A stretch of 52,801 nt of DNA from Prevotella sp. (GTDB lineage: Bacteria; Bacteroidota; Bacteroidia; Bacteroidales; Bacteroidaceae): the NCBI GenBank assembly GCA_017509155.1, contig JAFWQE010000086.1, positions 1 to 52,801 of the forward strand, read 5' to 3'. This document shows positions 11,990 through 25,240 of this stretch, one piece after another (position 1 is the first letter of the stretch; every line of letters begins with the position of its first letter). A program made the position numbers and the translations under genes. The notes beneath the pieces are model-generated. The model saw only the letters and a list, made by a program, of their open reading frames with translations, was not told where the DNA came from and did no database searches.

Positions 11990-12415
11990 TTAGAGATACT
12001 TCTTTATCTGCTCAATCATCTGCTGGTACTCCTCGTCGGTGAGATACACCTTGCCGGGATTCATCTGGAACGTTCCGCCGTAATCGGGGCCGTCCACATA
12101 TTTGGGTGCAAGATGAAAATGGAGGTGCGAAAGCTTGTCGCTGTAGGCGCCATAGTTGATTTTCTCCGGGTTGAACGCCTTCTGCATGGCTCGCGTAACC
12201 TTGGCTACGTCGCCCATGAAAGCATTACGCTCATCATCGCTCAGTTCGTTCAGGTCGTTCACGTGTCCGTTGTATGCCACGAGGCAACGGCCACGGTAAG
12301 TCTGTTCTTTGAATAGGAAAGCGCGCGACACAGAAAGAGGGGCTATCTCTATCATCAGGTCGTGCAAGGTCTGGTTGTTGGTGCAATAGAGGCACTGTTT
12401 AGGATCGCTCTGCAT
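11990..12415 (-). CDS. HIT family nucleotide-binding protein
   Basis: A small histidine triad protein (141 residues), a class that hydrolyses or transfers nucleoside monophosphates bound through phosphoramide or dinucleotide bonds. The HxHxHxx motif is SHLHFHLAPK. The N-terminal CLYC pair resembles metal-binding cysteines of some HIT proteins. The start at 12415 (MQSDPKQC) is chosen because upstream codons translate a repeat. The gene lies between serA and DUF1015. Its substrate cannot be predicted. Confidence 0.9.
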   Translation of the reverse strand: MQSDPKQCLYCTNNQTLHDLMIEIAPLSVSRAFLFKEQTYRGRCLVAYNGHVNDLNELSDDERNAFMGDVAKVTRAMQKAFNPEKINYGAYSDKLSHLHFHLAPKYVDGPDYGGTFQMNPGKVYLTDEEYQQMIEQIKKYL

Positions 12416-12427
12416 AGGATTGTTTTT

Positions 12428-12510
12428 AAGTGATAAGTGAAAAGAGAGAAGTGAGAGCCACCAAGCCCCCGGAAGAGGTGGTGGATTCTCACTTCTCATT
12501 TTTCTTGGGG
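12428..12510. repeat. Inverted word element between HIT gene and serA
   Basis: AAGTGATAAGTGAAAAG words lead into a perfect 11-bp stem (12446-12456 with 12487-12497) enclosing CCACC/GGTGG pairs. It has the same design as the other word elements in this window and may also act as a hairpin between the two genes. Confidence 0.6.
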
Positions 12511-12516
12511 AAATAT

Positions 12517-13434
12517 TTATTTGTTCACCTGGAAGCGGGTGTCACCGTCCTTGAAGAAGGCGTTGATCTGACGGGCTGCTGCAATGCCGGCATTGATGTT
12601 GGCCTCGGCTGTCTGTGCACCCATCTTCTTAGGCGTGCTGAAGTAGCGACCTTCGAACTGTGCGAATTCAGCGTCGGCATCGGGCTTGATGTCGGTAACG
12701 AACTTCAGGTCTTCGCGCTGCTTCATCAGTTCAATCAGTTCGGGCTCATTGATTACCTCCTTGCGGGCAGTGTTCACCAGCACGCCACCTTTCTTCATCT
12801 TGCCTACGAGTGCGGCATTGATGCTCTGCTTGGTCTCGGGTGTGGCGGGAATATGGAGTGACACCACGTCACAGGTCTCAAAGAGTGCCTCCTGGTTGTC
12901 TACGGCATGCACACCGGCAGACTCTATGGCCTCCTTCGGGCAATAGGCATCGTAGGCATAGATGTCCATGCCGAAGCCTTTTGCGATGCGGGCCACATTG
13001 CGACCGACATTGCCGAAAGCCAGAATACCAAGTTTCTTGCCAAGCAGCTCGCTTCCACTCTTGCCGTTGTAGAATCCACGCACGGCCATAACGAGAAGTC
13101 CGAATACAAGCTCGGCAACGGCGTTAGAGTTCTGTCCCGGTGTGTTCTCTGCTACTACCTGATGAGCTGTGGCAGCTGCGAGGTCGATGTTATCGTAGCC
13201 GGCACCTGCGCGCACAACAATCTTCAGTTGCTTGGCAGCGTCGAGCACTTCTGCGTCAACCTTGTCCGACCGGATAATCATGGCGTCAACATCTTTCACG
13301 GCTTCCAGCAGCTGGGCCTTCTCAGTGTATTTCTCAAGCAGCACCAGTTCGTGGCCTGCTCCTTCTATCTCCTCACGAATTCCATTCACGGCTGCAGCTG
13401 CGAACGGTTTTTCTGTAGCGACTAATACTTTCAT
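12517..13434 (-). CDS. serA: D-3-phosphoglycerate dehydrogenase
   Basis: Oxidises 3-phosphoglycerate to 3-phosphohydroxypyruvate with NAD, the first step of serine synthesis. The 305 residues are the short form without an ACT regulatory domain, so serine feedback may be absent. The NAD-binding GFGNVGRNVARIA region, VVRAGAGYDNID and the catalytic-domain VNTARKEVINEPEL are clear. Where most family members have His followed by a glycine-rich turn, this one reads TPKKMGAQTAEAN, with Lys in place of the catalytic His, a variant I recall from other Bacteroidales. The start at 13434 (MKVLVATEKP) is preferred over the upstream ATG at 13461, which would begin in the repeat's target duplication. It works with serC just upstream. 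Confidence 0.92.
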   Translation of the reverse strand: MKVLVATEKPFAAAAVNGIREEIEGAGHELVLLEKYTEKAQLLEAVKDVDAMIIRSDKVDAEVLDAAKQLKIVVRAGAGYDNIDLAAATAHQVVAENTPGQNSNAVAELVFGLLVMAVRGFYNGKSGSELLGKKLGILAFGNVGRNVARIAKGFGMDIYAYDAYCPKEAIESAGVHAVDNQEALFETCDVVSLHIPATPETKQSINAALVGKMKKGGVLVNTARKEVINEPELIELMKQREDLKFVTDIKPDADAEFAQFEGRYFSTPKKMGAQTAEANINAGIAAARQINAFFKDGDTRFQVNK

Positions 13435-13457
13435 CTTTCTTTTTATTATAATGTAAT

Positions 13458-13626
13458 TCAAGTTTCGTATTCGCTAAACTTCCTGGAGTTCAGGAGTTCA
13501 GGAGTTGCAGGAGTTCAGACGATAGTGCTGAAGGCTCTCTTTTCGTCAGTTTACAGGGGTTGAAAGTATTGTCTGAACTTCTGTAACTCCTGAACTCCTG
13601 AACTCCATCAACTTGCGAAAGTTGAG
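13458..13626. mobile_element. MITE-like element, copy A
   Basis: A 169-bp element between direct repeats TAATGTAAT (13449-13457 and 13627-13635). Its ends are inverted: TCAAGTTTCG at the left and, read backwards, TCAACTTTCGC at the right. Each end continues into GGAGTTCAGGAGTTCAGG words facing each other. The core has GATAGTGCTGAAGGCTCTC and GTATTGTCTGAAC. The same ends and core occur at 51819-52019. No transposase is encoded, so it is non-autonomous. It lies between serC and serA. Confidence 0.85.
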
Positions 13627-13637
13627 TAATGTAATAA

Positions 13638-13666
13638 GGTGTTGGAGACTTTCGTCGACCAACACC
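13638..13666. terminator. Hairpin between serC and serA
   Basis: An 8-bp stem (13638-13645 with 13659-13666) lies 12 bases after the serC stop. On the plus strand it is followed by seven Ts, on the minus strand only by TTATTAC, so for serC it is a weak terminator or attenuator. The MITE copy A begins just downstream. Confidence 0.5.
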
Positions 13667-13678
13667 TTTTTTTATTTA

Positions 13679-14746
13679 TTAGTGATTTGCTTCAAACTCC
13701 TTCATCGTGTCGATGAGTGCCTGCACGCCCTCTATGGTCTGGGCGTTGTAGCAGCTTGCGCGGAAGCCACCCACCGAGCGGTGTCCCTTGATGCCTACCA
13801 TGCCCTTGCTCGTAGCAAACTCGAAGAACGGTTTCTCAAGCTCAGCATATTCTTCGTTCATCACGAAGCAGATATTCATGACCGAGCGGTCCTCTTCGGC
13901 AACGGTTCCGTGGAACAGCTTGTTGCGGTCTATCTCAGCATAAAGCATCTCTGCACGCTGGCAAGCACGCTTGTCCATTGCCTCAACGCCACCCTGTGCC
14001 TTAATCCAACGCAGGTTCTCGAGGGCTGTGTAGATGGGAACTACTGGAGGTGTGTTGAACATGGAGCCTTTCTCCACATGTGTGCGATAGTCGAGCATGG
14101 TGGGGATGGGCCTTGGAGCCTTGCCCAGTGCATCGTTCTTCACGATGACGATGGTGACACCGGCCATCGAGAGGTTCTTCTGCGCACCGGCATAGATGCA
14201 GTCGTACTTGGCAACGTCAACGGGACGGCTGAAGATGTCGGAAGACATGTCGCAGATCTGACGAACGGGAACGTCGAGGTCTACACGGCACTCCGTGCCA
14301 TAGATGGTGTTGTTTGACGTTGTATGGAAATAATCGGCATCCTCGGGAACGGTATATCCCTTAGGAATGAATGTATAGTTTGCGTCAGCAGAAGAAGCCA
14401 CTTCCACGACCTCGCCGAAAAGCTTTGCTTCCTTCATTGCCTTCTTGGCCCACGTACCGGTGTTCAGATAGGCTGCTTTCTTGATAAGGAAGTTGAACGG
14501 CACCATGCAGAACTCAAGTGAAGCGCCACCGCCCAGGAAAAGAACCGAATATCCTTCGGGAACCTGAAGGAGCTCCTTCACCAAGGCCTCGGCCTCATCT
14601 ACTACTGGTTGAAAATCCTTGGCACGGTGGCTGATTTCTGCCAGTGAAAGACCGCTGCCGTTGAAGTCAAGAATCTGTTTTGCCGTATTCTCGATTACCT
14701 CACGGGGAAGCATCGAGGGTCCAGCATTAAAATTGTACTTCTTCAT
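13679..14746 (-). CDS. serC: Phosphoserine aminotransferase
   Basis: A PLP enzyme that converts 3-phosphohydroxypyruvate and glutamate to phosphoserine, the second step of serine synthesis; it can also serve pyridoxine synthesis. The 355 residues match the family. It begins with the typical [13 protein letters not shown], has [11 protein letters not shown], and the PLP lysine lies in [13 protein letters not shown]. It heads the serC-serA-HIT-DUF1015-YigZ run and has a strong promoter at 14783-14814. No phosphoserine phosphatase is seen nearby. Confidence 0.97.
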
Positions 14747-14782
14747 GAAAATCTTAATTTTGTGGATTAATAAAATTCGGCG

Positions 14783-14814
14783 CGAAATTACACATTTTGA
14801 ATGAAATAGCCAAA
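14783..14814 (-). promoter_or_regulatory. Promoter of serC
   Basis: On the minus strand TTTG (14811-14814), a 20-base spacer and TAATTTCG (14783-14790) fit the Bacteroidetes promoter with one change in the -7 box. The predicted start is about 33 bases before the serC ATG. Confidence 0.65.
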
Positions 14815-14854
14815 TATTTTATCATTATTTTCCATTATTCTCGTCTTAAGGTGT

Positions 14855-16165
14855 CTATTTGACAACTTCAATTAGCGTTTTGACACCTTTAATCTTCTCG
14901 CCGTTCGTTTTCTTCAGCACCTGAGAGAGTTTGCCGCTGACGATTGCGACATAGCAATACCGGTCTCTCACATCGATGCGACCAATCTCTTCGTTCTTCA
15001 GTTCGCCTTTCTTGCAGAGGAAGCCCACGACGTCGCCTTTCGATATTTTGTCGCGTTTTCCCTTCCCTATATAGAGTGTCACCATGCGAGGAGCTGCAGG
15101 AGGGGGCAGCTGTTCTTCAATCTCAAACACTGAAGGTTCATCCGCCAGATAGTCGGGCACCGACTCTGTGGGACCTAACACAAAGAACACATTGCCCTGC
15201 TTGTCCCACCGGGCTGTGCGGCCGACGCGATGAACGTAGGCATCCTGAGTCTCAGGAAGATGATAATGGATGATGTTGCCCACATCAGGAATGTCAAGTC
15301 CGCGTGAGGCAAGGTCGGTGCACACCAGCACATTGGCCGAGGCGTTGCAGAACCTGTAGAGGGCATCTTCACGTTGTTTCTGGTCCAGTCCACCGTGGAG
15401 CATGCTCACGGCAAAGCCCTCGGAACGAAGATACGAAGCGGTGCGTTCCACACTGTCTCGGTGATTCAAGAAGACCACACTGCTGCTGCCCACCTGACGG
15501 AGCAATCGCGAAAGCGTCTCGAGCTTGTCTTTCTGCGGACTCTCCACTCGATAAACATGCAGCCTTTCCGGTGTTCCCTCCTTACGATAGTCGAAACGTG
15601 AGGTGCGCCCCATTCTGACAAATCGTGGGATGTCTTCGGCATCGGTAGCAGAAAGAAGCACACGACGCTCCACGGCAGGGAGCTTTCCGATAATTTGCTC
15701 CATTTCATCGAGGAATCCCATCTGAAGACACTTGTCAAACTCATCAATAATCAGCCATTTCACCGACACTGCATCGATGTTGCCTTTCGTCAGATGGTCG
15801 TTCATTCTGCCAGGCGTGGCAAACACCACATGGGGCAGCTCCTTGCGCAGTTGCCTGTGCTCGTCCATCGTCGGCTTTCCGCCATAGAGCGCCATGCCTC
15901 TCACTCCGGCCCCCATCTGCTTGAGCACCTGAGCCGATTGCAAAGCCAGTTCTCTGCCTGGAACCAGCACAACAGCCTGCACTTCGTCCACATCTTTCTT
16001 GAGCAACTGCACCAAAGGCAACAGGTAGGCCAGCGTCTTACCACTACCTGTCGGTGAGAGCACCACCACATCTTTCTTGGTTTCCACTACAGCCCGCTTC
16101 ACGGCCTTCTGCATCTCACTGAGCGTCTCAATGCCCAGCTTTTTCAGTACTTCGTTTATTTCCAT
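14855..16165 (-). CDS. dbpA: DEAD-box RNA helicase DbpA
   Basis: An ATP-dependent RNA helicase of the DbpA type, which is directed to 23S rRNA (hairpin 92) during large-subunit assembly. The 436 residues hold the Q motif (ETLSEMQKAV), Walker A SPTGSGKT, motif II IIDEFD (DEFD rather than DEAD), motif III LLSATD, and motif VI YVHRVGRTAR. The last 75 residues (MVTLYIGKGKRDKISKGD...) form the DbpA RNA-binding domain. The start at 16165 lies only about one base from the transcription start predicted from its promoter, so the mRNA may be leaderless. Confidence 0.93.
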   Translation of the reverse strand: MEINEVLKKLGIETLSEMQKAVKRAVVETKKDVVVLSPTGSGKTLAYLLPLVQLLKKDVDEVQAVVLVPGRELALQSAQVLKQMGAGVRGMALYGGKPTMDEHRQLRKELPHVVFATPGRMNDHLTKGNIDAVSVKWLIIDEFDKCLQMGFLDEMEQIIGKLPAVERRVLLSATDAEDIPRFVRMGRTSRFDYRKEGTPERLHVYRVESPQKDKLETLSRLLRQVGSSSVVFLNHRDSVERTASYLRSEGFAVSMLHGGLDQKQREDALYRFCNASANVLVCTDLASRGLDIPDVGNIIHYHLPETQDAYVHRVGRTARWDKQGNVFFVLGPTESVPDYLADEPSVFEIEEQLPPPAAPRMVTLYIGKGKRDKISKGDVVGFLCKKGELKNEEIGRIDVRDRYCYVAIVSGKLSQVLKKTNGEKIKGVKTLIEVVK

Positions 16166-16169
16166 GGTG

Positions 16170-16200
16170 CAAAGTTACTGAAAAACAAAAGCAGAACAAA
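16170..16200 (-). promoter_or_regulatory. Promoter of dbpA
   Basis: On the minus strand TTTG (16197-16200), 19 bases and TAACTTTG (16170-16177) are a full match to the Bacteroidetes promoter. Placing the last G of the box at -4 puts +1 at 16166, one base before the ATG. Confidence 0.75.
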
Positions 16201-16272
16201 ATAAACTCGATGTTTTTTGTGATATTATAAAGATTCGCATTCGGTTTCAACTGTGTTTTTCCATCTGTGCGC

Positions 16273-16620
16273 AGCCGCTCCCCTCCCCTAAAACAACTCT
16301 TTATACACATTTGTATAAGCATTACTATCGGCAACGAAGGAAACGCTTTCAATGCTTAGCGGAGAAGACGGCCCGAAGGGCCATAAGAAGTCAGCCCAGG
16401 GCAGCGCCCTGGGTATCATATGATGGCCAATGTACGCCCTAGAGGGGCAAAAGAATTGATCATCTTCATCTGGGAAAATGCTTTTGCCCTTCTGCTGGGC
16501 GTTTGCAACACACGACCATAGTACCCAGGGCGTTGCCCTGGGCTGGTTGCTGCTGGCCTTTCAGGCCGATTGTTTCAGATGTGTATAAAGAGTAGTCCCC
16601 TAAAATGGGAGGGGAGCGGC
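16273..16620. repeat. 348-bp near-palindromic repeat element
   Basis: The two halves are inverted copies along most of their length. The outer arms share GCCGCTCCCCTCCC and ACTCTTTATACACAT; inner arms share a GGCCxxxAGGCC palindrome, then CAGCCCAGGGC followed by CGCCCTGGGT, then GGGCAAAAG. A transcript in either direction would fold into one long branched hairpin. The CCCAGGGC-xx-GCCCTGGG word is, from memory, common in Bacteroidetes intergenic DNA. No coding capacity is seen. Together with flanking word arrays it fills the 560-base gap between dbpA and the DUF262 gene. Confidence 0.8.
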
Positions 16621-16728
16621 TAACGCCGACGCTAAACGCAGCAGCCAACTACCATTTCTCTTACCTCTCACCTCCCACCACTTACCTCTAAAACTGAAGC
16701 AAACGGAGCTTGCGAAAGTAGAATAGAA

Positions 16729-17913
16729 CTATCTGTTCCCTTTCGCCCTGTTGTGTGTCTTGCAAAGCATCTGGCAGTTTTCTATATCGGTGCTGCCTCC
16801 CTTGCTCCATGCCGTTACATGGTCGGCATCCATTTCTTCCAGTTTCCAGATGCGACGGGCATTCTGGTCGTTACCGATGGCACAGTAAGGGCAGTTGCTA
16901 ACACCCTCAGCCTTTGCCTTGTCGGTCTGCTTCTGATACACTTTTCTCATCGTGGGCTTGTCGAACAAGCGGACATTCAAGAGCTTGGTATCCTTACAGC
17001 CGCCTAGCACATACTCAAACACCCCTTTGCGGTTACCCACAAAATCATCGCGCATCAGTTCGCGCACCTTTTCCGACAACTCCGTATGATTCATGGAAAG
17101 ATGATGGAAGCGCTCATAGAGTTCGCCCCAGTTCAAGCCCTGCATCTCGTCATACACATCGTCAAACTTGCTGTCCACCCAGTCTATCACGGTGTTGAAG
17201 TAGGTGCGTATTTCGTTGATGTTGTCGTCACGGCGATGGGCTGACATATAGGCACTCACTTTGTCTTTTGCATCCATGTTCCGGCTGACCCATTCCAAAG
17301 CCGTAGCCAGGAACTGCTGCCGGTTGGCTGGCCCTTTCACATAGCTCTCCCAACGCTGAATGTTGGCATTTCCGGAATTTGAGAATTCTTCCTTGCACTT
17401 CGTAACGAATGGTCCGGAGAAGACCGCATTCAGTTCCTCCTGACGATTGAGCGGGATACCTGCTATATTGATGGTCTTAAACCAATCCTTGATTTCTTCT
17501 TCAGCATGCTCGCCCTCACCTTCGCAGATATAGACGAGCAACTTTGTTTGCAGAATCTTCTGCTGCAGGCCTTCATTCAGTCCGTCGAAGATTTGCTCCA
17601 AGTCGTTTATCTTCACGGCAAACTTATTCCGCAGAAAACGTCCAAGCGAAGTGATACGCTGCTGACCGTCAAGCACTTCCAGCCGTCCATCGTCCACTCG
17701 GTTAAAATAAATCAATCCAAGAGGATAACCTTTCAACGCAGAATCAATTACAGCCACATCCCTTTTGCCGTCAGCATAGATATAGTTACGCTGATATTCG
17801 GGTTGAATGGTTAACTGGCCAGCCAAGCCATAAAGACCTTTGCCCTCCAGTTCGTTGTACTCAAAGCCGTCGCAAACCTCTGCAACGGTATAGATTTTCA
17901 ATTCTGTCTTCAT
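16729..17913 (-). CDS. DUF262 domain protein with C-terminal HNH nuclease
   Basis: The 394 residues combine a DUF262 (ParB/Srx-like, nucleotide-hydrolysing) domain with a nuclease. The N-terminal part has IQPEYQRNYIY (36-46) and the signature LDGQQRITSL (81-90), the motif used by GmrSD and SspE defence proteins. The C-terminus is a zinc-type HNH nuclease: CPYC (341-344), DADH with His365, then Asn379, LCKTHNRAKG with Cys384, His387 and Asn388. The start overlaps the methyltransferase stop by 4 bases (ATGA), so both proteins are made from one transcript. I infer that it is the DNA-cutting partner of that methyltransferase, either classical (blocked by methylation) or modification-dependent. 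Not shown experimentally here. The pair sits in an island with repeats on the 3' side. Confidence 0.85.
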   Translation of the reverse strand: MKTELKIYTVAEVCDGFEYNELEGKGLYGLAGQLTIQPEYQRNYIYADGKRDVAVIDSALKGYPLGLIYFNRVDDGRLEVLDGQQRITSLGRFLRNKFAVKINDLEQIFDGLNEGLQQKILQTKLLVYICEGEGEHAEEEIKDWFKTINIAGIPLNRQEELNAVFSGPFVTKCKEEFSNSGNANIQRWESYVKGPANRQQFLATALEWVSRNMDAKDKVSAYMSAHRRDDNINEIRTYFNTVIDWVDSKFDDVYDEMQGLNWGELYERFHHLSMNHTELSEKVRELMRDDFVGNRKGVFEYVLGGCKDTKLLNVRLFDKPTMRKVYQKQTDKAKAEGVSNCPYCAIGNDQNARRIWKLEEMDADHVTAWSKGGSTDIENCQMLCKTHNRAKGNR

Positions 17914-19064
17914 GCTTGTTGCTTTTTGCGGATTAGTATTCTTTGATAAACTTTCACTAGTTGCCCATTATCTAATAGTACACCACTAGCATTTAAGTCA
18001 TAAGTGCCTTGTTTTCCAAACTTTTTCAAATAAGCATCTTTACATTCTTTAGAAGAATAAACTTTGGTTTTTAATGAGTACAAATCAAGATTCTCACACA
18101 TTCCTAAGATTTCATATTGCTCTGGACAATATTTATCAAGGAATGATGCTGGCACGCCCATTACGCCCTTATAATCGGAAGGGATGGCATCTGTATAGGG
18201 TATTTCTATAGCATCATAATTCTCATAATGTATGTATTCTTTCCGCTCTCGAATATCTTTATGCTTGCTATGCTTGAAATTTTCAGCCATTGTCATTAAT
18301 CGGAGTGGCTGATGCCTTCTTCCATGATCAATATTCGTAAACCAACAACAATTGCGAAACTTAACCAAACCTGTCTCTGCATCATAAACACCATCTGCAT
18401 AATCCCTTTCATTAACTATACGGAAGTATGCATTGCCATTTTGGAAACCATTACCCAACCACATTTTGTTTGTCATTATAAGAGGGAACACTTCTTTATA
18501 TGTGATGGCATTCATGCTACCAATAATGATGAATTGTTTTTCCGTTTCCATCAACCAAGCAACGAATTCACGGAACAGCGAGAACGGAGGATTAGTCACA
18601 ATGATGTCAGCCTCGTCGCGGAGTCTGCGTATTTCCTTACTACGGAAATCCCCGTCTCCCTCCAGATACTGCCATTGCAAATCGTTGATGTTGATGCGAT
18701 TGTCGCCCGTCATATCACGGTCAAGCACGAATATCTTGCCGTGCGTCTTACTCTTATCATTATCAAAATATGGCTGTGAAGTCTCAAAGAGAGTCGGCTG
18801 ATACGGCAACTTGTATTTCTTGCTTTCAGGTGCATAGCTGGTAGAAATAAGCTTCTTCAAGCCCAACAGCTCAAAGTTCTGAGCGAAGAACTTCGTGAAG
18901 TTGCTCCACTCCGGGTCGTCGCAAGGCAACAGCACCGTCTTGCCACGAAACACATCCGGATCATAGTCCAGATAGGCGTTTATCTCCTTCTGTATGTCAG
19001 GATACTGCGTGTAGAACTCATCGTTCTTCGCAGTCTTCGCATTTGCTAAGTTTGTATTTGCCAT
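17910..19064 (-). CDS. EcoRI-family adenine DNA methyltransferase
   Basis: The 384 residues resemble the EcoRI modification methylase family, which methylates adenine N6 in a short DNA site. Family marks are the N-terminal NAKTAKNDEFYTQ (to residue 20), VLLPCDDPEWSNF (44-56) and the catalytic motif IV NPPF (158-161). Start 19064 (MANTNLANAK) is chosen over 19097 because it begins the family sequence and because an inverted repeat lies directly upstream. No EcoRI-like endonuclease is encoded; the coupled partner is the DUF262-HNH gene. The middle third is richer in A/T than neighbouring genes, suggesting acquisition. The target site cannot be predicted. Confidence 0.88.
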   Translation of the reverse strand: MANTNLANAKTAKNDEFYTQYPDIQKEINAYLDYDPDVFRGKTVLLPCDDPEWSNFTKFFAQNFELLGLKKLISTSYAPESKKYKLPYQPTLFETSQPYFDNDKSKTHGKIFVLDRDMTGDNRININDLQWQYLEGDGDFRSKEIRRLRDEADIIVTNPPFSLFREFVAWLMETEKQFIIIGSMNAITYKEVFPLIMTNKMWLGNGFQNGNAYFRIVNERDYADGVYDAETGLVKFRNCCWFTNIDHGRRHQPLRLMTMAENFKHSKHKDIRERKEYIHYENYDAIEIPYTDAIPSDYKGVMGVPASFLDKYCPEQYEILGMCENLDLYSLKTKVYSSKECKDAYLKKFGKQGTYDLNASGVLLDNGQLVKVYQRILIRKKQQA

Positions 19065-19070
19065 AGACAA

Positions 19071-19110
19071 CGATTGATAGTTAAAGCTTATTTGCATTGA
19101 CTATCAATCG
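19071..19110. promoter_or_regulatory. Inverted repeat directly before the methyltransferase start
   Basis: CGATTGATAG (19071-19080) and CTATCAATCG (19101-19110) form a perfect 10-bp inverted repeat with a 20-base spacer, ending 7 bases before the start codon at 19064. It could be an operator for autoregulation or an RNA hairpin controlling translation. No T tract follows, so a terminator is less likely. Confidence 0.5.
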
Positions 19111-19383
19111 CTTACGCGCACAAGAAAAGCGTGATACTATTCTTATCGCGTTAAGCACGGGGCGGCCTCGGAATGGTACCCCGGATTCCCTCTCCTAAGA
19201 ATGCATCACGCCTAAGACGTGTGCATCGCATATTGGAGAGGACATCAAGGTCACCAACAGACGTCAGCCACCTTCACATATTATTATCGTGCTTATTATA
19301 CCAATTAGAGTTTCCGAGGCTCTTGGCTTAACGCGAAATAATAGCGAATGCTTTATGGTTGTTCGGATTTCTCCCCGAACCAA
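19110..19383 (-). ncRNA. Structured RNA or long leader upstream of the methyltransferase
   Basis: On the minus strand a -7 box (19387-19394) predicts a 5' end at 19383. The RNA starts with a GUUCGG/CCGAAC hairpin (19361-19380). A 10-bp stem (19326-19335 with 19147-19156) and a 9-bp stem (19312-19320 with 19165-19173) then enclose about 190 nt that contain a strong hairpin (19235-19241 with 19189-19195, extended by 19218-19226 with 19201-19210). No reading frame of note is present. Length and closing stem recall 6S RNA, but the bubble is lopsided. tmRNA, RNase P and SRP signatures were not found. It is either an independent RNA or a roughly 320-base regulatory leader of the methyltransferase mRNA. 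Confidence 0.5.
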
Positions 19384-19386
19384 TTG

Positions 19387-19394
19387 CAAAGGTA
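19387..19394 (-). promoter_or_regulatory. -7 box for the structured RNA/methyltransferase transcript
   Basis: TACCTTTG on the minus strand fits TAnnTTTG. A TTTG at the right distance upstream is not evident. The same octamer precedes the tRNA pair, DUF5715 and the membrane protein at 49497. Confidence 0.5.
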
Positions 19395-19502
19395 CGACTT
19401 TTTTATGAGATAAGGTGCATTGTCGTCAAAAAAGTTTCTTTGTGAGGACTTATTTCAATGTCTTTTTGAAGGGAAAGATGCGGATTATTCCCTTTTTTTG
19501 CT

Positions 19503-19510
19503 TAAATTTG
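19503..19510 (+). promoter_or_regulatory. -7 box of ispE
   Basis: TAAATTTG matches the Bacteroidetes -7 consensus; a -33 TTTG is not at the usual distance. It would start a transcript about 16 bases before the ispE ATG. Confidence 0.5.
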
Positions 19511-19529
19511 CACGCAAAAAGCGAAAGAT

Positions 19530-20339
19530 ATGAAAATAAAGACTTGCTCGAAGATCAATCTCGGACTCAACATCGTTTCCAAAAGACCTGATGGCTACCA
19601 TAATCTGGAAACGGTGTTCTATCCCGTTGAACTGTCCGACTACATTGAGATTACCGAACTCCCCACGTCAGAATGCCAGCTCAGCATCAGCGGCACCCCC
19701 ATAGAGGGTGAGGCTGAAAAGAACCTTGTCGTCAGGGCATACCGGTTGCTCTCGGAGCACTATCAGCTACCTGGTGTGAGAATAGACCTTTGCAAGAATG
19801 TCCCCATACAGGCAGGAATGGGCGGTGGCTCAGCCGACTGTGCCTTCACCATGCGCCTGCTCAACGACATGTTCTCCTTGGGCATCGATGACGACCAGTT
19901 GCGTACCTTCGCCGCACAGCTTGGGGCCGACTGCGCCTTCTTCATCGACCCACGTCCGTCGTATGCCGAGGGCATCGGTGAAAAGCTCCGTCCTGTTGAG
20001 CTCCGTCTTGATGATTACCGACTGGTCATTGTCAAGCCAGACATTGCCGTCAGCACACGAGAGGCTTTTGCCAACATCAAGCCACAGCGGCCTCCGAAGA
20101 ACTGCCTGCAGGTGGTGCAACAGCCCATTGAGACCTGGCGCGAGGAACTGAAGAACGATTTCGAGGAAAGCATCTTCCCGCAATACCCACGCATCGGTGA
20201 AATCAAGGAGGAACTCTATCGTCAGGGAGCTGTCTATGCGGCCATGAGCGGAAGCGGTAGCGCCCTGTTCGGCTTCTTCAGAGATACCGACAATGTGCAG
20301 GAAAAAGCCTTCCACGACTGCTTCTTCAGAGTGCTATAA
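19530..20339 (+). CDS. ispE: 4-diphosphocytidyl-2-C-methyl-D-erythritol kinase
   Basis: Phosphorylates CDP-methylerythritol at the 2-hydroxyl in the MEP pathway to isoprenoids. It is a GHMP-family kinase; the phosphate-binding motif VPIQAGMGGGSAD is at about 91-103. The N-terminus CSKINLGLNIVSKRPDGYHN is typical of IspE, and AAMSGSGSALFGFF near the C-terminus is GHMP motif 3. The 269-residue length is normal. It follows the divergent methyltransferase island and is probably transcribed alone or with the NUDIX gene beyond a repeat. Confidence 0.96.
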   Translation: MKIKTCSKINLGLNIVSKRPDGYHNLETVFYPVELSDYIEITELPTSECQLSISGTPIEGEAEKNLVVRAYRLLSEHYQLPGVRIDLCKNVPIQAGMGGGSADCAFTMRLLNDMFSLGIDDDQLRTFAAQLGADCAFFIDPRPSYAEGIGEKLRPVELRLDDYRLVIVKPDIAVSTREAFANIKPQRPPKNCLQVVQQPIETWREELKNDFEESIFPQYPRIGEIKEELYRQGAVYAAMSGSGSALFGFFRDTDNVQEKAFHDCFFRVL

Positions 20340-20343
20340 GTAG

Positions 20344-20532
20344 AACCCACCCCTGCCCCTCCCCAAGGGAGGGGTTGCAGAGAGCGTTACCTCTCACTCC
20401 TTGCACTTCATCCTAGAACTGGGAGGATCGGGGAGGTCTTGGAGGGCCAAGGGGGCTTTGAGACAGAAGAGGTATTCACTTCTTCTCACCTCTCTGAAGA
20501 ACCCCTCCCTTGGGGAGGGGCAGGGGTGGGTT
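20344..20532. repeat. 189-bp element with perfect 33-bp inverted ends
   Basis: The ends at 20344-20376 and 20500-20532 are perfect 33-base inverted copies, and each contains the small palindrome CCCCTCCC/GGGAGGGG. The core (GCAGAGAGC...CTCCTTGCACTTC) resembles that of the 905-1004 element. No target duplication could be seen. Confidence 0.85.
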
Positions 20533-20567
20533 TCCAAATATAATGTATTACTAACAGACAGAAAGAT

Positions 20568-21071
20568 ATGAAAGACAACCAAAAGGAACTCTTCCCCGTT
20601 GTTGATGAACAGGGGAACATTCTCGGAAGCATCACCCGCGGCGAGGCCCACAACGGCACCAAGGTTCTCCATCCTGTGGTTCATCTGCATGTGTTCAACT
20701 CCGATGGTGATCTGTTCCTGCAGCACCGCCCAGCATGGAAAGACATCCAGCCGGACAAGTGGGACACGGCCTGTGGTGGACATGTGGACTTCGGTGAGAG
20801 TGTGGAACAAGCTCTGCATCGTGAGGTGTTGGAAGAGCTCGGAATAGAAGACTATACGCCTGAGTTCCTTCTGACATACGTTTTCGAAGGCCCCCGCGAG
20901 CGTGAACTGGTGTACGCCTACCGCACCACCTACGACGGAACCATCCATCCAAGTGAGAACGAACTGGAGGGCGGAAGGTTCTGGTCGCCCGATGAAATCG
21001 GCAAAAACATAGGGAAAGGGGTATTCACGCCCAACTTTGAAGACGAGTACCAACGGCTGTTCCTCAAATAA
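20568..21071 (+). CDS. NUDIX hydrolase, isopentenyl-isomerase-like group
   Basis: A NUDIX enzyme of 167 residues that probably cleaves a nucleoside diphosphate derivative. The NUDIX box GX5EX7REVXEELG spans 70-92 (GGHVDFGESVEQ then ALHREVLEELG). The N-terminal part (ELFPVVDEQGNILGSITRGEAH and LFLQHRP) resembles the YfcD/IPP-isomerase-like subgroup. Because it lies after ispE an isoprenoid role is tempting, but the conserved Cys and Glu of true isomerases could not be confirmed. The substrate is unknown. Confidence 0.88.
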   Translation: MKDNQKELFPVVDEQGNILGSITRGEAHNGTKVLHPVVHLHVFNSDGDLFLQHRPAWKDIQPDKWDTACGGHVDFGESVEQALHREVLEELGIEDYTPEFLLTYVFEGPRERELVYAYRTTYDGTIHPSENELEGGRFWSPDEIGKNIGKGVFTPNFEDEYQRLFLK

Positions 21072-21163
21072 TGTATGGCAAGCTTCTCAGCATGCCTGGG
21101 GCGCTACACAAATATGCATGAACAAACATGTAAGCAACGAATCAAAACTAACTGATATTATAA

Positions 21164-21241
21164 ATTGAACACAAAGACTCAGAGGCACGGAGTTTTTTTC
21201 TTTACACAAGAACTCTGCATCTCTGTGTCTTGGTGTTCAAT
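21164..21241. repeat. Inverted repeat hairpin after the NUDIX gene
   Basis: Arms of about 31 bases (21164-21194 and 21211-21241) starting ATTGAACAC at the outer ends pair with a few mismatches around a T-rich loop. The remaining bases of the 21072-21348 gap hold only TTACCTCTCACC words (about 21280-21320). No gene is seen. Confidence 0.7.
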
Positions 21242-21348
21242 AAACAAACTATACTTTTTCATCTATTAAGAGGTATCCTTTTACCTCTCACCTCTCACCT
21301 CTTACCTCTCACTTCTCAACTCTTAATTCTTAACTCTTAACTATAAAC

Positions 21349-21380
21349 AACGCCCGCTACCAAACCAGGTAACGGGCGTT
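21349..21380 (-). terminator. Terminator of the tRNA pair
   Basis: A 13-bp stem (21349-21361 with 21368-21380), AACGCCCG...CGGGCGTT, lies 17 bases past the tRNA-Gly 3' end. The T tract is better on the plus strand (TTATTTTT) than on the minus strand (GTTTAT), so it may work in both directions. Confidence 0.7.
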
Positions 21381-21396
21381 TTATTTTTCAGCTAAG

Positions 21397-21469
21397 AGCG
21401 ATAAACGGGACTCGAACCCGCGACCCTCGGCTTGGGAAGCCAATGCTCTACCAACTGAGCTATTATCGC
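21397..21469 (-). tRNA. tRNA-Gly (anticodon CCC)
   Basis: A complete 73-base cloverleaf: acceptor GCGATAA/TTATCGC, D stem GCTC/GAGC, anticodon stem TTGGC/GCCGA with loop TTCCCAA, and T arm GCGGG-TTCGAGT-CCCGT. The anticodon is CCC, reading GGG glycine codons. The 3' CCA is not encoded. It lies 27 bases after tRNA-Thr in the same direction. Confidence 0.95.
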
Positions 21470-21496
21470 AAGAATGAATCGTGTTTATTCGAATGG

Positions 21497-21569
<73 letters not shown>

Positions 21570-21606
21570 AAGTCCTTTCAGAGGGGTTGCTTTTCAAATG
21601 CGGGTG

Positions 21607-21614
21607 CAAAGGTA
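21607..21614 (-). promoter_or_regulatory. -7 box of the tRNA pair
   Basis: TACCTTTG on the minus strand, about 38 bases before tRNA-Thr. Upstream is an array of GAAGAGTGAA words rather than a clear -33 box. Confidence 0.55.
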
Positions 21615-21706
21615 AGGAAAAAAGTGAAGAGTGAAGAGTGAAAAGTGAAGAATATTCTTCGTGTTAACATTTTTTTATCCTTGCAAGCCTCTTCCCGATT
21701 GCCTTT

Positions 21707-22528
21707 TCATCGTGTCGTGATGTGGAAACAGCCCTGCTTCACTTCGTACTTGATGTAGCAGCGATCGTTCTTCCGCATGTCGTTGAGAACCTCAGAAAGC
21801 ACCCATTTCAACGTGTCACTGGGCACCGTGCGGCGCTGCTCGCCAGGAGCCTTAACAGTGACATATCGGTTGTAGGCTATGTCGAACGTCGTGCCATAGA
21901 GGTGGCAGCTGTTCTCGGTGGCGTTCTTGTTGTAGTTGCGGAGTTTCTCCACGTCCTCACGTGTGCGGAGCACGCTTGTCACGATGAGCTGATGGATGGG
22001 CACTCCCTTCAGCTGCAGGCTGTCGTAGAAGCACCGGCCGATGTCGTGAAGCAGCACGGCAGCGCGCGGCACCAGATAGGGAATGCTCTGTCGCATGGGG
22101 TCGATGTGGTAAAAGGGTGATGCGCCTATGTAGACGAGTTCGTTCTTCCTTGCCTCGGCATCGTTACGATTGGCCACGGGCGACACGCCCCACTGCTGGG
22201 CCGATGCCATCTGCACATAGTTGCTGTCGGGGAAGGCTTCGCTATAGCTGGGGACGCTCAGAATGGTATGGCGCAATGCGGTGTTGTCTGCCCTGAGAAA
22301 CTGAGGTGCCTGCTTATCGGCAACACTCACCACCTGTGGTTCTTTCTTGACGGGCGGTTCCTTTTTCTCCACCTTCACGGTGTCGGCGACAGCCACCGGC
22401 GTTGTCGTTTCCTTGGCCTTGGGCTGACGGTCGTCGTCAATGGAAGGAAACAACAGCCTGACGATGCCCAGTATGAGCACCACCACGGCAAAGCCAGCCA
22501 AAAACTGATTCTTCTTTATCTTGCGCAT
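21707..22528 (-). CDS. DUF5715 family membrane-anchored M15/VanY-like peptidase
   Basis: A 273-residue protein with an N-terminal membrane anchor (about 9-29), a charged Lys/Pro/Val linker (to about 75) and a periplasmic domain. The domain has SCHLYGTTFDIAYNRY, the SxHxxGxAxD zinc-binding signature of D-Ala-D-Ala carboxypeptidase-like enzymes, and a C-terminal CFHIT that may supply another His. SVLRTREDVEKLRNYN also suits the DUF5715 family. I infer a role in trimming peptidoglycan peptides in the periplasm. It is transcribed alone after a repeat-rich leader. Confidence 0.8.
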   Translation of the reverse strand: MRKIKKNQFLAGFAVVVLILGIVRLLFPSIDDDRQPKAKETTTPVAVADTVKVEKKEPPVKKEPQVVSVADKQAPQFLRADNTALRHTILSVPSYSEAFPDSNYVQMASAQQWGVSPVANRNDAEARKNELVYIGASPFYHIDPMRQSIPYLVPRAAVLLHDIGRCFYDSLQLKGVPIHQLIVTSVLRTREDVEKLRNYNKNATENSCHLYGTTFDIAYNRYVTVKAPGEQRRTVPSDTLKWVLSEVLNDMRKNDRCYIKYEVKQGCFHITTR

Positions 22529-22569
22529 CGATATCTTTCGGTTCTCTATATACCTATTTATATTTATTT

Positions 22570-22701
22570 AGAGGTGAGAGGTAAGAGGTGAGAGGTAAGT
22601 GGTAAGAGGATACTCTTCAGCTTCAACGCCCTCCCTCCAAAACCCACCCCGACCCTCCAAGACCCACCCCGACCCTCCCTGTTCAGGGAGGGAGTGGTGA
22701 G
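22570..22701. repeat. GAGAGGTAAG words joined to a CCCTCCC-family repeat
   Basis: The left part is a degenerate array of GAGAGGTAAGAGGT words; the right part is a CCCTCCC-family repeat with the same palindrome as the 905 element. It lies in the predicted leader of the DUF5715 gene. Confidence 0.65.
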
Positions 22702-22771
22702 AGGATCGTTTCGAGCGTTGTATTACCATCCTGTGGTCGCCTACCCGTAGCCTTCCACCCTTACAGCCGTG

Positions 22772-22779
22772 CAAAGGTA
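22772..22779 (-). promoter_or_regulatory. -7 box of the DUF5715 gene
   Basis: TACCTTTG on the minus strand, about 240 bases before the start codon. The long leader would be explained by insertion of the 22570-22701 repeats. Confidence 0.45.
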
Positions 22780-22874
22780 AGCATTTTCCATGGAAAGCGT
22801 GGATGTTTTCGTTAAAAATCAAGAAAACAAGGTTTATAAATCAAATTTTACATTTTTAATCAAACGAAAAGCGG

Positions 22875-22882
22875 TAATTTTG
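22875..22882 (+). promoter_or_regulatory. -7 box of the secreted repeat protein gene
   Basis: TAATTTTG on the plus strand, about 64 bases before the ATG at 22946. Only a TTTT, not TTTG, is found near the -33 position. Confidence 0.5.
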
Positions 22883-22945
22883 GCAGCGAAATCCGAAAAC
22901 GTTTTATCTACTAAGACGATTATTATTCATTTAAAACAATATCCT

Positions 22946-25240
22946 ATGAACAAAAAATCTACATTAAGAATGGTGCTTACTGCCTTATTATTGGCGGTTG
23001 GCGTGAACATTGGCTGGGCTCAGACAACGCTGTATGAGCGCGGTAACGGAACGGCATGGTCTGATGATGACCTGACGGCATGGACCTGGACCTCTGACAA
23101 TACAGATGTCACTTTGGCCATAGACAATGGCCTTAAAGCATCTGCAAACAACTCTGGTTATCAGGTGAAAAAGAGCTTAACTGTGCAATCTGGCTCCAAA
23201 ATTGACATTAAACTAACATGGAGCACCGGAGTGTCAACAGGTAGACCCGGTTCTTACAACTATTTGAAAATAGGTGACGTAGAGTTTCGTGCTTACGGGC
23301 AGGACCAGAAGGGCTCTTGTGTTATTGGAGGAGTGGAAACTACACTGACGCAGGTTAAAGAAGATGTTCGTGGAGGCGTCTGGAAAATCGAAGCGTCAAT
23401 TGACCTGGGCACAAAGAAAGTGTCTGGTACTGTGACTCTTCCGAGTGCTGCAAAAGAGATTAGCGGATCTTCAACATCAAGTACCATATCTAGTTTCGTG
23501 ATGGGTTTCTATAAATCAGGAAGAGTCGTTGACATCAACCAGACCTTGAACAATATTGAAATTAAAGAAACCACACAGAGCATTTCATTAGCCAACTACA
23601 CCATCCGCTATTGGGACTTAGATGACAACGAGCTGAAGACACCGTCAGTGCGCGAAGGCCAGGTTGGAACAGCTGTAGTCATTACCGAAGCAGACAAGGC
23701 CGACTTCTATGGTGAAGACGCGAAATACCATTTGAGTCACATCGATGGCGAGAATGCAACTATCGCTTCTGATGGCTCTACCGTGGTGACACTCTATTTC
23801 GAGGAATTAGGCAAGTTCAAAGCACAGGTAGACGCTTATGACGATGAGACTGGTGACCTGATTCAGGAAGCTGTGGGAACGGCAGAGGGTTACGAAGGTG
23901 ATGCCGTCACCGTATACTATCCCAAAGGTGTGAAGGACAGCAATGGCAACTGGTATTTCATCGACCAGAACAGTGCGGAGCCTTGGTATGGTCTTGCCAA
24001 CTTCGAATATTATGACACTGACCCCGGAGAAGTTTATTACACCCTAAACAGCAACGTGAAGTACTATACCGATGTTGAGAACCTCACTCCTTCACGCGCA
24101 TGGGCTGCCAAAGGAAACTATCCCAACCGCTATAGCGGTGGCGTTGCTCCGCGTCTTGCTACCGGTGCTAGTGTGAGCACCGATGCTATTGAAGAGGCTG
24201 GCACCTACTATCTCTATGTATATGCCCGCAACCAGTCGGCCAGCTCTGCCGGCACGCTGAATGTCTACGTGGTGGACGCTGGCGACGTGGAGACATTGGT
24301 AGAAAACGGCTTCGACAACTGGAACGGCGGCAACTCGATGGCAAAGATGATTGAAGTGACTGTGCCCGCTGGTGGCAAGATCAAGCTTGAGAACCCAAGT
24401 ACAGAATACAACTCGAACCTTGAGCTCGACTACCTCTACTTGGAACTGAAGCCCGAGATGTATCACGCTGTGTTCAACGCCGTTGACGAGCAGGGCACTC
24501 TGCTGGCCGTTGTGAAAGACGTGGAAGTGCAGAAGGGCACAAGCCAGAACATTTTCTTCTCGAAGGGCCTTCAGATCGACGATGTCTGGTACATGGCTCG
24601 CCAGCTCTCTACCACCGACGACACACCCTGGTATGGCGCATTCTTTGAAGATGAGAACGAAGTGGACGTGACCTTCCGCAAGGACGAGACGATTGTCTAC
24701 TTCACTGAGATTGAAGACCTGACACCTTCTCGCGCATACGCTACCACCACTTCTACTGTACCCATGCGCGTTTCTAATGGCGCCATCGGACGTCTTTACA
24801 AAGGAACCACTGTTGAGACCGCTACATTTGCCGAGGGCACTTACAACATCACCCTGTGGGGACGCAACCAGTCTGGAAGCTCTGATGCGAACGTAAATGT
24901 ATATGTAAAGGATGCTTCTGGCAGTGCGACTCTTCTGGATAACGGCTTCGAGGCTTGGGCTGCCGGTGGTGCAGGAACTGGCGAGAAGACCATCTGGGGC
25001 GTGGAAATCCCCGCAGGAGGCAGCATCGTCATAGAGAACCCGAGCGCAGAGTATAACTCGAACCTCGAAATGGACTACCTCTACGTCGACACGAAGCCCA
25101 TTCCCGCCGCTCCTACTGCCATCAAGAACGTGCAGACAGAAAGCGAGGACGGTGCCATCTACAACCTGCAGGGTCAGCGCGTCAGCCAGCCCGAGCGTGG
25201 AATCTTCGTGAAGAACGGAAAGAAGGTCATTGTGAAGTAA
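22946..25240 (+). CDS. Large secreted protein with two ~210-residue repeats
   Basis: I do not recognise a characterised family. The 764 residues begin with a signal peptide (MNKKSTLRMVLTALLLAVG...GWAQ). Residues about 30-210 look like a beta-rich lectin or carbohydrate-binding-like domain. Two tandem repeats follow (about 290-502 and 504-718), each ending with ENPS-EYNSNLE-DYLY and sharing LTPSRA, and with WGRNQS or YARNQS and VNVYVKDA or LNVYVVDA. The C-terminus (YNLQGQRVSQPERGIFVKNG) resembles the end of type IX sorting domains of Prevotella. A cell-surface or secreted role, perhaps glycan binding, is an inference. The start at 22946 is set by the signal peptide. Confidence 0.8.
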   Translation: MNKKSTLRMVLTALLLAVGVNIGWAQTTLYERGNGTAWSDDDLTAWTWTSDNTDVTLAIDNGLKASANNSGYQVKKSLTVQSGSKIDIKLTWSTGVSTGRPGSYNYLKIGDVEFRAYGQDQKGSCVIGGVETTLTQVKEDVRGGVWKIEASIDLGTKKVSGTVTLPSAAKEISGSSTSSTISSFVMGFYKSGRVVDINQTLNNIEIKETTQSISLANYTIRYWDLDDNELKTPSVREGQVGTAVVITEADKADFYGEDAKYHLSHIDGENATIASDGSTVVTLYFEELGKFKAQVDAYDDETGDLIQEAVGTAEGYEGDAVTVYYPKGVKDSNGNWYFIDQNSAEPWYGLANFEYYDTDPGEVYYTLNSNVKYYTDVENLTPSRAWAAKGNYPNRYSGGVAPRLATGASVSTDAIEEAGTYYLYVYARNQSASSAGTLNVYVVDAGDVETLVENGFDNWNGGNSMAKMIEVTVPAGGKIKLENPSTEYNSNLELDYLYLELKPEMYHAVFNAVDEQGTLLAVVKDVEVQKGTSQNIFFSKGLQIDDVWYMARQLSTTDDTPWYGAFFEDENEVDVTFRKDETIVYFTEIEDLTPSRAYATTTSTVPMRVSNGAIGRLYKGTTVETATFAEGTYNITLWGRNQSGSSDANVNVYVKDASGSATLLDNGFEAWAAGGAGTGEKTIWGVEIPAGGSIVIENPSAEYNSNLEMDYLYVDTKPIPAAPTAIKNVQTESEDGAIYNLQGQRVSQPERGIFVKNGKKVIVK

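Follow-up and report, generated by a model that had tools for sequence, protein, structure and literature searches.

Organisation of the locus

The window, i.e. the whole 52,801-nt stretch of Prevotella sp. DNA analysed here (contig JAFWQE010000086.1), carries on its minus strand a two-gene unit that the original prediction had correctly placed at 16729–19064. The upstream gene, M (17910–19064), encodes an EcoRI-family adenine methyltransferase of 384 residues with NPPF at residue 158 (PF13651 EcoRI_methylase, E = 1.1e-124; PADLOC MTase_II, E = 3.7e-83). Its start was set at the ATG that aligns with homologues; the longest open reading frame would begin at 19097. The downstream gene, D (16729–17913), encodes a protein of 394 residues, which consists of a DUF262 (GmrSD_N) domain (PF03235, E = 2.3e-19) and a C-terminal HNH domain (PF01844, E = 7.4e-10). 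The stop of M and the start of D overlap by four nucleotides (17910–17913), as originally claimed, and this gap of −4 is the commonest M–D spacing (63 of 156 pairs). The G+C content per kilobase is 0.41–0.49 over the pair vs 0.46–0.55 in the remaining kilobases of 12000–24000.

Sequence comparison reveals two hypervariable segments in M, presumed target-recognition modules 1 and 2: V1 (residues 205–238; 18351–18452), and the C-terminal tail (residues 318–384; 17913–18113), which begins after the FLDKYxPxQF motif. In D, the previously noted LDGQQR occupies residues 81–86, of which DGQQR (residues 82–86; 17656–17670) is presumed to form a nucleotide pocket. In DUF262 relatives, DGQQR has been proposed or shown to serve as the NTP pocket, with the hydrolysis of NTP gating a nuclease (PMC4619093, PMC10952713). 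The HNH region spans residues 340–394 (16732–16896; PF01844 match at residues 340–393), and its histidine is indeed His365 (16819–16821). All 178 D relatives keep DGQQR and 175 of them keep DHxxPW, the exceptions to the latter being DHIVEW in locus L184 and the broken reading frames of L009 and L068. In Pfam, D additionally shows a weak match to HNH_5 and none to DUF1524. Against PDB sequences, the best of three matches to M has E = 0.7; D matches HNH chains, with a further weak match to 7p9k, a DUF262 chain (E = 0.016). There are no M–D fusions among the scanned loci. An empty site beside ispE was sought in nine relatives; the DEAD-box helicase gene of the window was not found in the ~1.5 kb of flank covered, and no empty site emerged.

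The original prediction held that M lacks a classical partner endonuclease. This needs a qualifier, since the PADLOC REase_II model PDLC03418 spans D end to end (E = 7.5e-84). All 17 D relatives of alignment A1 match this model as well, and M is matched at full length by the MTase_II model PDLC03297. Public records likewise show an ‘adenine-specific methyltransferase EcoRI family protein’ adjoining a ‘DUF262 domain-containing protein’. On the PADLOC labels, annotation already places the pairing under Type II. The PADLOC assignment is a sequence-family label, for which the accessible parts of the literature searched give no mechanism, and the open-licence literature, as far as its accessible parts go, does not describe an EcoRI-type methylase with a DUF262–HNH partner or with switchable tails.

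Conservation of the pair

The genome of the window (229 contigs, 82% complete) contains three M–D pairs, on the contigs C89 (the window), C120 and C193. A survey of 395 genomes from the phylum shows PF13651 in 20 of them, and the D profile finds 23 full-length places above 300 bits, while other DUF262 places score 90 bits or less. A same-strand upstream M lies beside 22 of these 23 full-length D genes, and the 23rd D begins 213 nt from a contig end. In one genome (G389), M is found about 1.8 kb upstream of D on the same strand and contig. Conversely, the 32 places with M (35 PF13651 match rows after joining of split genes) comprise 22 with D, two with an EcoRI endonuclease, three at contig edges and five in which M is alone or decayed. 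The EcoRI endonuclease partner was confirmed as PF02963 in L014 and assigned in L015 by resemblance to L014.

Two further sets, both biased to near relatives, give the same picture. Among the best 80 of at least 379 D-related loci in a species-genome collection, a same-strand M is present in 77, and the other three end upstream of D; among the best 80 of 160 viral loci, M is present in 76, and the remaining four are cut short by sequence ends. M and D stand apart in 12 loci of these two sets, mostly with genes in between. Such intervening genes (YhcG nuclease, ORF6N, Bro-N, DUF2806 and others) are seen in L036, L038, L039, L064, L080, L144 and L146. The gene order is reversed in the viral locus L173, where D precedes M and an invertible tail follows M. 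In L009 and L018, the D beside M is truncated or stopped; the L009 D, which has an in-frame stop, was excluded from the counts.

The record titles of the best 80 of at least 379 loci name Bacteroidota, Patescibacteria groups, Clostridia, Anaerolineae, Actinobacteria, Proteobacteria, Spirochaetes, among others, and many of the records are metagenome assemblies. D relatives also occur in plasmids (91 records, 43 at ≥80% coverage) and in phages (12 records, 4 at ≥80% coverage). A 9-kb plasmid of Pediococcus pentosaceus (CP146864) carries an M–D pair, and M and D are adjacent in Flavobacterium phage laban6-1. The M–D pair is a widespread unit: the co-occurrence of the two families, which the original prediction of a two-gene system had named as its check, is seen in every sample examined.

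A structured leader RNA upstream of M

M is preceded by a structured leader RNA of about 290 nt (19065–19352, minus strand), which is matched by model R1 at 19062–19352 with 177.3 bits, the window leader being one of the 16 rows of the model. Its terminal hairpin (19071–19110, minus strand), with 11-bp arms CGATTGATAGT and ACTATCAATCG, lies 6 nt before the M start. The octamer TACCTTTG (19387–19394, minus strand) is a possible −7 promoter element of the Bacteroidota type, as it fits TAnnTTTG, which we take to be the −7 motif of this phylum.

The structure is supported by covariation. In the alignment of 16 leaders (A4), 91.9% of the cells pair, 13 of the 26 pairs change on both sides, and the covariation score is 0.300 vs 0.150 for shuffled alignments (none of 500 reaches it) and no more than 0.091 for slid ones. 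A further long-range helix, P1, is misaligned in A4; its two sides change together from one leader to another (TCGCGTTAAGC/GCTTAACGCGA, GCGCATAGC/GCTATGCGC and TCACATTCA/TGAATGTGA). Summed over 20 leaders, the lengths of P1 and P2 are 189 and 197 bp vs 127 and 136 bp in chimeras from one random draw. Helix P3 was not used because some of its instances are one stretch pairing with itself (C120, L035, L042).

A search of 83 sources with model R1, which had been built from 16 of them, gives 26 matches at E ≤ 0.01. Twenty of the matches end at an M start codon, three weak ones (L040, L041, L099) end upstream of it, and three are reverse echoes of the terminal palindrome. Under strict filters, R1 matches among 198 genomes of the phylum are confined to the genome of the window, in which the leader precedes all three M genes and, once, another gene, a secreted-protein-like ORF on contig C207 that presumably resembles CsgG, as judged by eye. 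These occurrences correspond to the window, L325, L326 and L334 (1038–1311). Within this assembly, the terminal palindrome GATTGATAG...CTATCAATC is found only at the three M genes. In viral contigs, the palindrome occurs in 30 stretches, none with M or D and all with unrelated loops, which were taken as chance; the 5' leader motif was not found there. An Rfam search of 18900–19530 gives nothing above the gathering score, the sole listed match being a microRNA family with E = 0.62. The M–D locus adds a structured RNA that has no Rfam match and perhaps controls M.

Two segments of M vary independently of D

The core of M and D diverge together, and V1 and the tail do not follow them. In 137 intact pairs, a set that leaves out split frames, two-M loci and M proteins without the FLDKYxPxQF motif, the Spearman correlation with D distance is 0.71 for the M core, −0.01 for V1 and −0.04 for the tail. 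V1 and tail are also mutually independent (−0.05). No part of D behaves differently: 40-residue windows along D correlate with V1 or tail at −0.09 to 0.02, and with the M core at 0.57 to 0.71. The correlation between the M core and D may reflect plain co-inheritance.

The segments are exchanged between close relatives. In 45 pairs with a D distance below 0.15, the tail distance exceeds 0.5 in 32, the V1 distance in 25 and both in 21. Loci L144 and L146 have D proteins that are identical at 392 of 393 positions and M proteins that share 97% identity in the N-terminal core and 90% in the middle, with 28% in V1 and 24% in the tail. At 60% identity, 33 V1 types and 65 tail types form 108 combinations; the tail type of the window occurs in nine M proteins, combined with seven V1 types. 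The three M proteins of the window's genome differ from one another in both V1 and tail.

M proteins partnered by an EcoRI endonuclease serve as a control. Thirteen loci with an EcoRI-family endonuclease were examined, 11 of which have a PF13651-like methylase, or ten without the duplicate; left out were L272 (a copy of L271), L274 and L281. In the latter two loci, the endonuclease adjoins a methylase unlike PF13651. The ten control M proteins come from plasmids of Escherichia, Klebsiella, Leuconostoc, Staphylococcus and Rhodococcus, three viral contigs and two further genomes. Despite core distances of 0.16–0.48, all ten have a single V1 type and a single tail type. At core distances of 0.2–0.35, V1 and tail distances average 0.14 and 0.27 with the EcoRI endonuclease (23 pairs) vs 0.76 and 0.68 with D (2781 pairs), and the bins 0.05–0.2 (3 vs 80 pairs) and 0.35–0.5 (19 vs 3765 pairs) point in the same direction.

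Both EcoRI-type segments also occur in D-partnered M proteins, each without the other. The EcoRI-type V1 is found with other tails in L013, L060, L061, L073, L120 and L164/L166, and EcoRI-type tails are found with other V1 segments in L026, L085, L112, L132, L153 and L159; no case of both together was found among the 137 D-partnered M proteins. L006, L012, L164 and L166 have a low tail distance to the EcoRI type, and L164/L166 pass a loose threshold, yet the letters of their tails are not of the EcoRI type. V1 and tail are locked with the EcoRI endonuclease and free with D, and therefore behave as recognition segments should. The pattern suggests segments that are fixed if the partner reads sequence and free if it does not.

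V1 and the tail could instead be surfaces that vary to escape phage inhibitors while the target sequence stays constant, since hypervariability and switchability (see below) would mark escape as well. Such escape does not predict that EcoRI-partnered M proteins keep both segments up to core differences of 0.48, and a C-terminal recognition region is usual for the methylase class of M. We consider escape highly improbable and retain recognition as the more probable role of the two segments.

Switch architectures of M in relatives

M has a switch architecture in 21 related loci, 20 of which have D nearby. Nineteen are among the 180 M loci of the first sets (171 with D; the window copy and duplicates omitted) and two (L225 and L247) are among 36 further loci. 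L247 has no D within 2.2 kb downstream, so switching is not tied to D. In the window pair and the two other pairs of its genome, no inversion, slippage or poly-G switch was found.

In eight loci (L139, L144, L146, L173, L184, L189, L190, L225), the tail is invertible. An exact inverted repeat of 15–21 bp covers the codons of the QFEI(L/I/V) junction, and its second arm stands at the head of a silent tail, which lies on the other strand, keeps the codon phase and has a proper end of its own. Inverted repeats of ≥15 bp with a span of ≤1500 number 36 in 1.29 Mb, including overlapping tandem-repeat entries (8 in L136, 4 in L165), and seven of them touch junctions, which make up 1.0% of the bases. 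L139 and L144 hold an identical set of three tail types and express different ones; the silent tail of L225 is of the type expressed by L173 and L184.

A tyrosine recombinase gene lies 16–36 nt downstream of D in L139 (5207–6172), L144 (4550–5485), L146 (5208–6143) and L148 (1279–2232; M is cut off in this locus), and may be the invertase for the tails of L139, L144 and L146. A recombinase model, built from these three loci themselves, has a match beside 6 of the 144 D genes with enough flank. L184 has a serine recombinase elsewhere on the same record; neither a tyrosine nor a serine recombinase was found on the records of L173, L189 and L190.

Slippage is the second type of switch. In L044, L057, L132, L153, L159 and L247, the tail region contains (GA)n, (CA)n, (GAACA)n or (ACAG)n, and different reading frames terminate in different tails. 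The regions L057:3420–4004, L159:3600–3999 and L247:3800–4499 are possible three-way slippage switches, where three frames lead to three tail ends. In a third type, a poly-G tract at one codon site has nine G and is in frame in L012, L016 and L026, and has ten G and is out of frame in L021 and L028, where D is intact; in L036 and L038, eight G separate two in-frame tails. Runs of ≥8 G or C number 8 in 198 kb of M, 0 in 211 kb of D and 10 in 992 kb of other sequence, and longer-unit repeats number 5 in M, 0 in D and 1 in 883 kb of other sequence. The tract and inverted-repeat counts omit the duplicates L002, L003, L027, L031 and L032 and loci from L194 onward.

A proposed role for D as a partner that does not read sequence

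One alternative is an ordinary Type II system, in which D is an independent sequence-specific endonuclease that reads the site of M and is blocked by its methylation. The PADLOC labels of D and M agree with it, as do the position of M ahead of D with an overlap and the fact that D never occurs without M where flanks allow, as for a toxic nuclease that needs protection. However, no part of D tracks V1 or the tail, whereas EcoRI-partnered M proteins hold both constant, and the nearly identical D proteins of L144 and L146 stand beside M proteins that differ in both segments. Since D stays the same while V1 and the tail both change, it cannot be an independent reader of the target sequence if these two segments determine it. 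Furthermore, L021, L028, L089, L189 and L190 combine an intact D with an M that is broken or out of frame, and two different M genes stand in tandem ahead of one D in L117, L138 and L179. Neither a switched or inactive M beside an intact D nor one D that serves two M proteins suits an ordinary Type II system, which we regard as unlikely; both fit a D that needs M. Translation coupling could also keep D silent when M is off, which would make that state harmless. Counting against a D that needs M and an M that switches its targets are the truncated or stopped D beside M in L009 and L018, the switch of L247 with no D within 2.2 kb downstream, and the absence of switches from the three pairs of the window's own genome.

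The main alternative to an M–D complex is a D that senses the mark rather than M. The DUF262 domain would detect modified or unmodified DNA and gate the nuclease with no M–D contact, as in enzymes of the SspE/GmrSD type, and D would then have no need to read sequence. To our knowledge, there is no case of a DUF262 protein that reads adenine methylation across many sequence contexts, as D would have to do here. In favour of this alternative, relatives of DUF262 are reported to detect modified DNA, with cleavage coupled to the hydrolysis of NTP (PMC10952713), and SspE is reported to depend on the host's own mark (PMC9646914). On the other hand, D has an HNH domain of PF01844, whereas GmrSD, BrxU and SspE have DUF1524. 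We rate mark sensing by D as quite improbable.

The reading that we favour, with a probability of roughly 0.55, is a two-subunit restriction–modification system in which reading and marking would fall to M alone, and D would be a sequence-blind HNH effector gated by NTP. As judged from its family, M would mark DNA by adenine methylation. It would be the only target reader, with V1 and the tail jointly setting the sequence. D would act as a general effector that M recruits, either as such or when bound at unmarked sites; its HNH nuclease, gated by the binding or hydrolysis of a nucleotide at DGQQR, would cut foreign DNA. The segments of M could be swapped or switched without cell death because D, as proposed, does not read sequence. 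From comparative patterns and family membership, we infer the recognition role of V1 and the tail, the dependence of D on M, NTP gating, DNA cutting and a role in defence.

Relation to known systems

The M–D system is Type II by annotation, nearer to Types I and III in logic by its pattern, and neither by its parts. It shares with EcoRI (Type IIP) a methylase of the family PF13651 and, separately, the EcoRI-type V1 and tail that occur in D-partnered M proteins; it differs in that the partner is a DUF262–HNH protein instead of the EcoRI endonuclease (PF02963 in L014) and in that V1 and the tail are not fixed. As in conventional Type II systems, a methylase and a separate nuclease are encoded together (22 of 23 D genes with M in 395 genomes). 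One paper describes the movement of TRDs in Types I, III and IIG and states that R and M of Type II ‘separately recognize a sequence’ (PMC7379913). In the M–D system, the specificities, as judged by inheritance, are not locked, and V1 and the tail are independent of all of D.

GmrSD, BrxU and SspE, as far as the accessible sources go, resemble D in having a DUF262 domain with DGQQR beside a His-Me type nuclease domain, which in D is PF01844 and not DUF1524. Moreover, Type IV enzymes of the GmrSD type act without a cognate methylase, whereas D is always beside a dedicated methylase where flanks allow. In its proposed logic, the system resembles Type III Mod–Res and Type I HsdS–HsdM–HsdR, which combine movable recognition modules with a constant NTP-binding cutter (PMC7379913). 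The protein families are different: neither a helicase nor an HsdS is seen in M or D, and D matches just DUF262 and HNH. Phase-variable Type I, III and IIG methylases, in the sources accessible, likewise show inversion or slippage of repeats, located in the gene for the methylase or for specificity; what alternates in the M–D loci is the C-terminal tail of an EcoRI-family methylase, with three tails in three frames in some loci.

The original claim that the pair fits no described class stands in part. It is weakened by the PADLOC assignment of D as a Type II enzyme and by public records that show the pairing; the swappable and switchable segments of M that D does not track, together with the leader RNA, favour a system that is not ordinary. 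The chances are about even that this is a distinct kind of restriction–modification, in which an EcoRI-type methylase with two freely combining segments would be the sole reader for an NTP-gated DUF262–HNH cutter, with tails switched by inversion or frame-choosing repeats in some lineages and with a structured leader RNA of its own in many Bacteroidales loci.

EcoRI is the textbook case of fixed specificity, and the same methylase family seems to have been turned into a modular, switchable reader by a cutter that does not read. If true, this would explain how a pair that looks like Type II can change its target without suicide, and both V1 and tail of the EcoRI methylase should have a share in the reading of GAATTC. 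DUF262 would gain a testable role as a gate, and the M–D loci would offer natural parts for studying how specificity is assembled.
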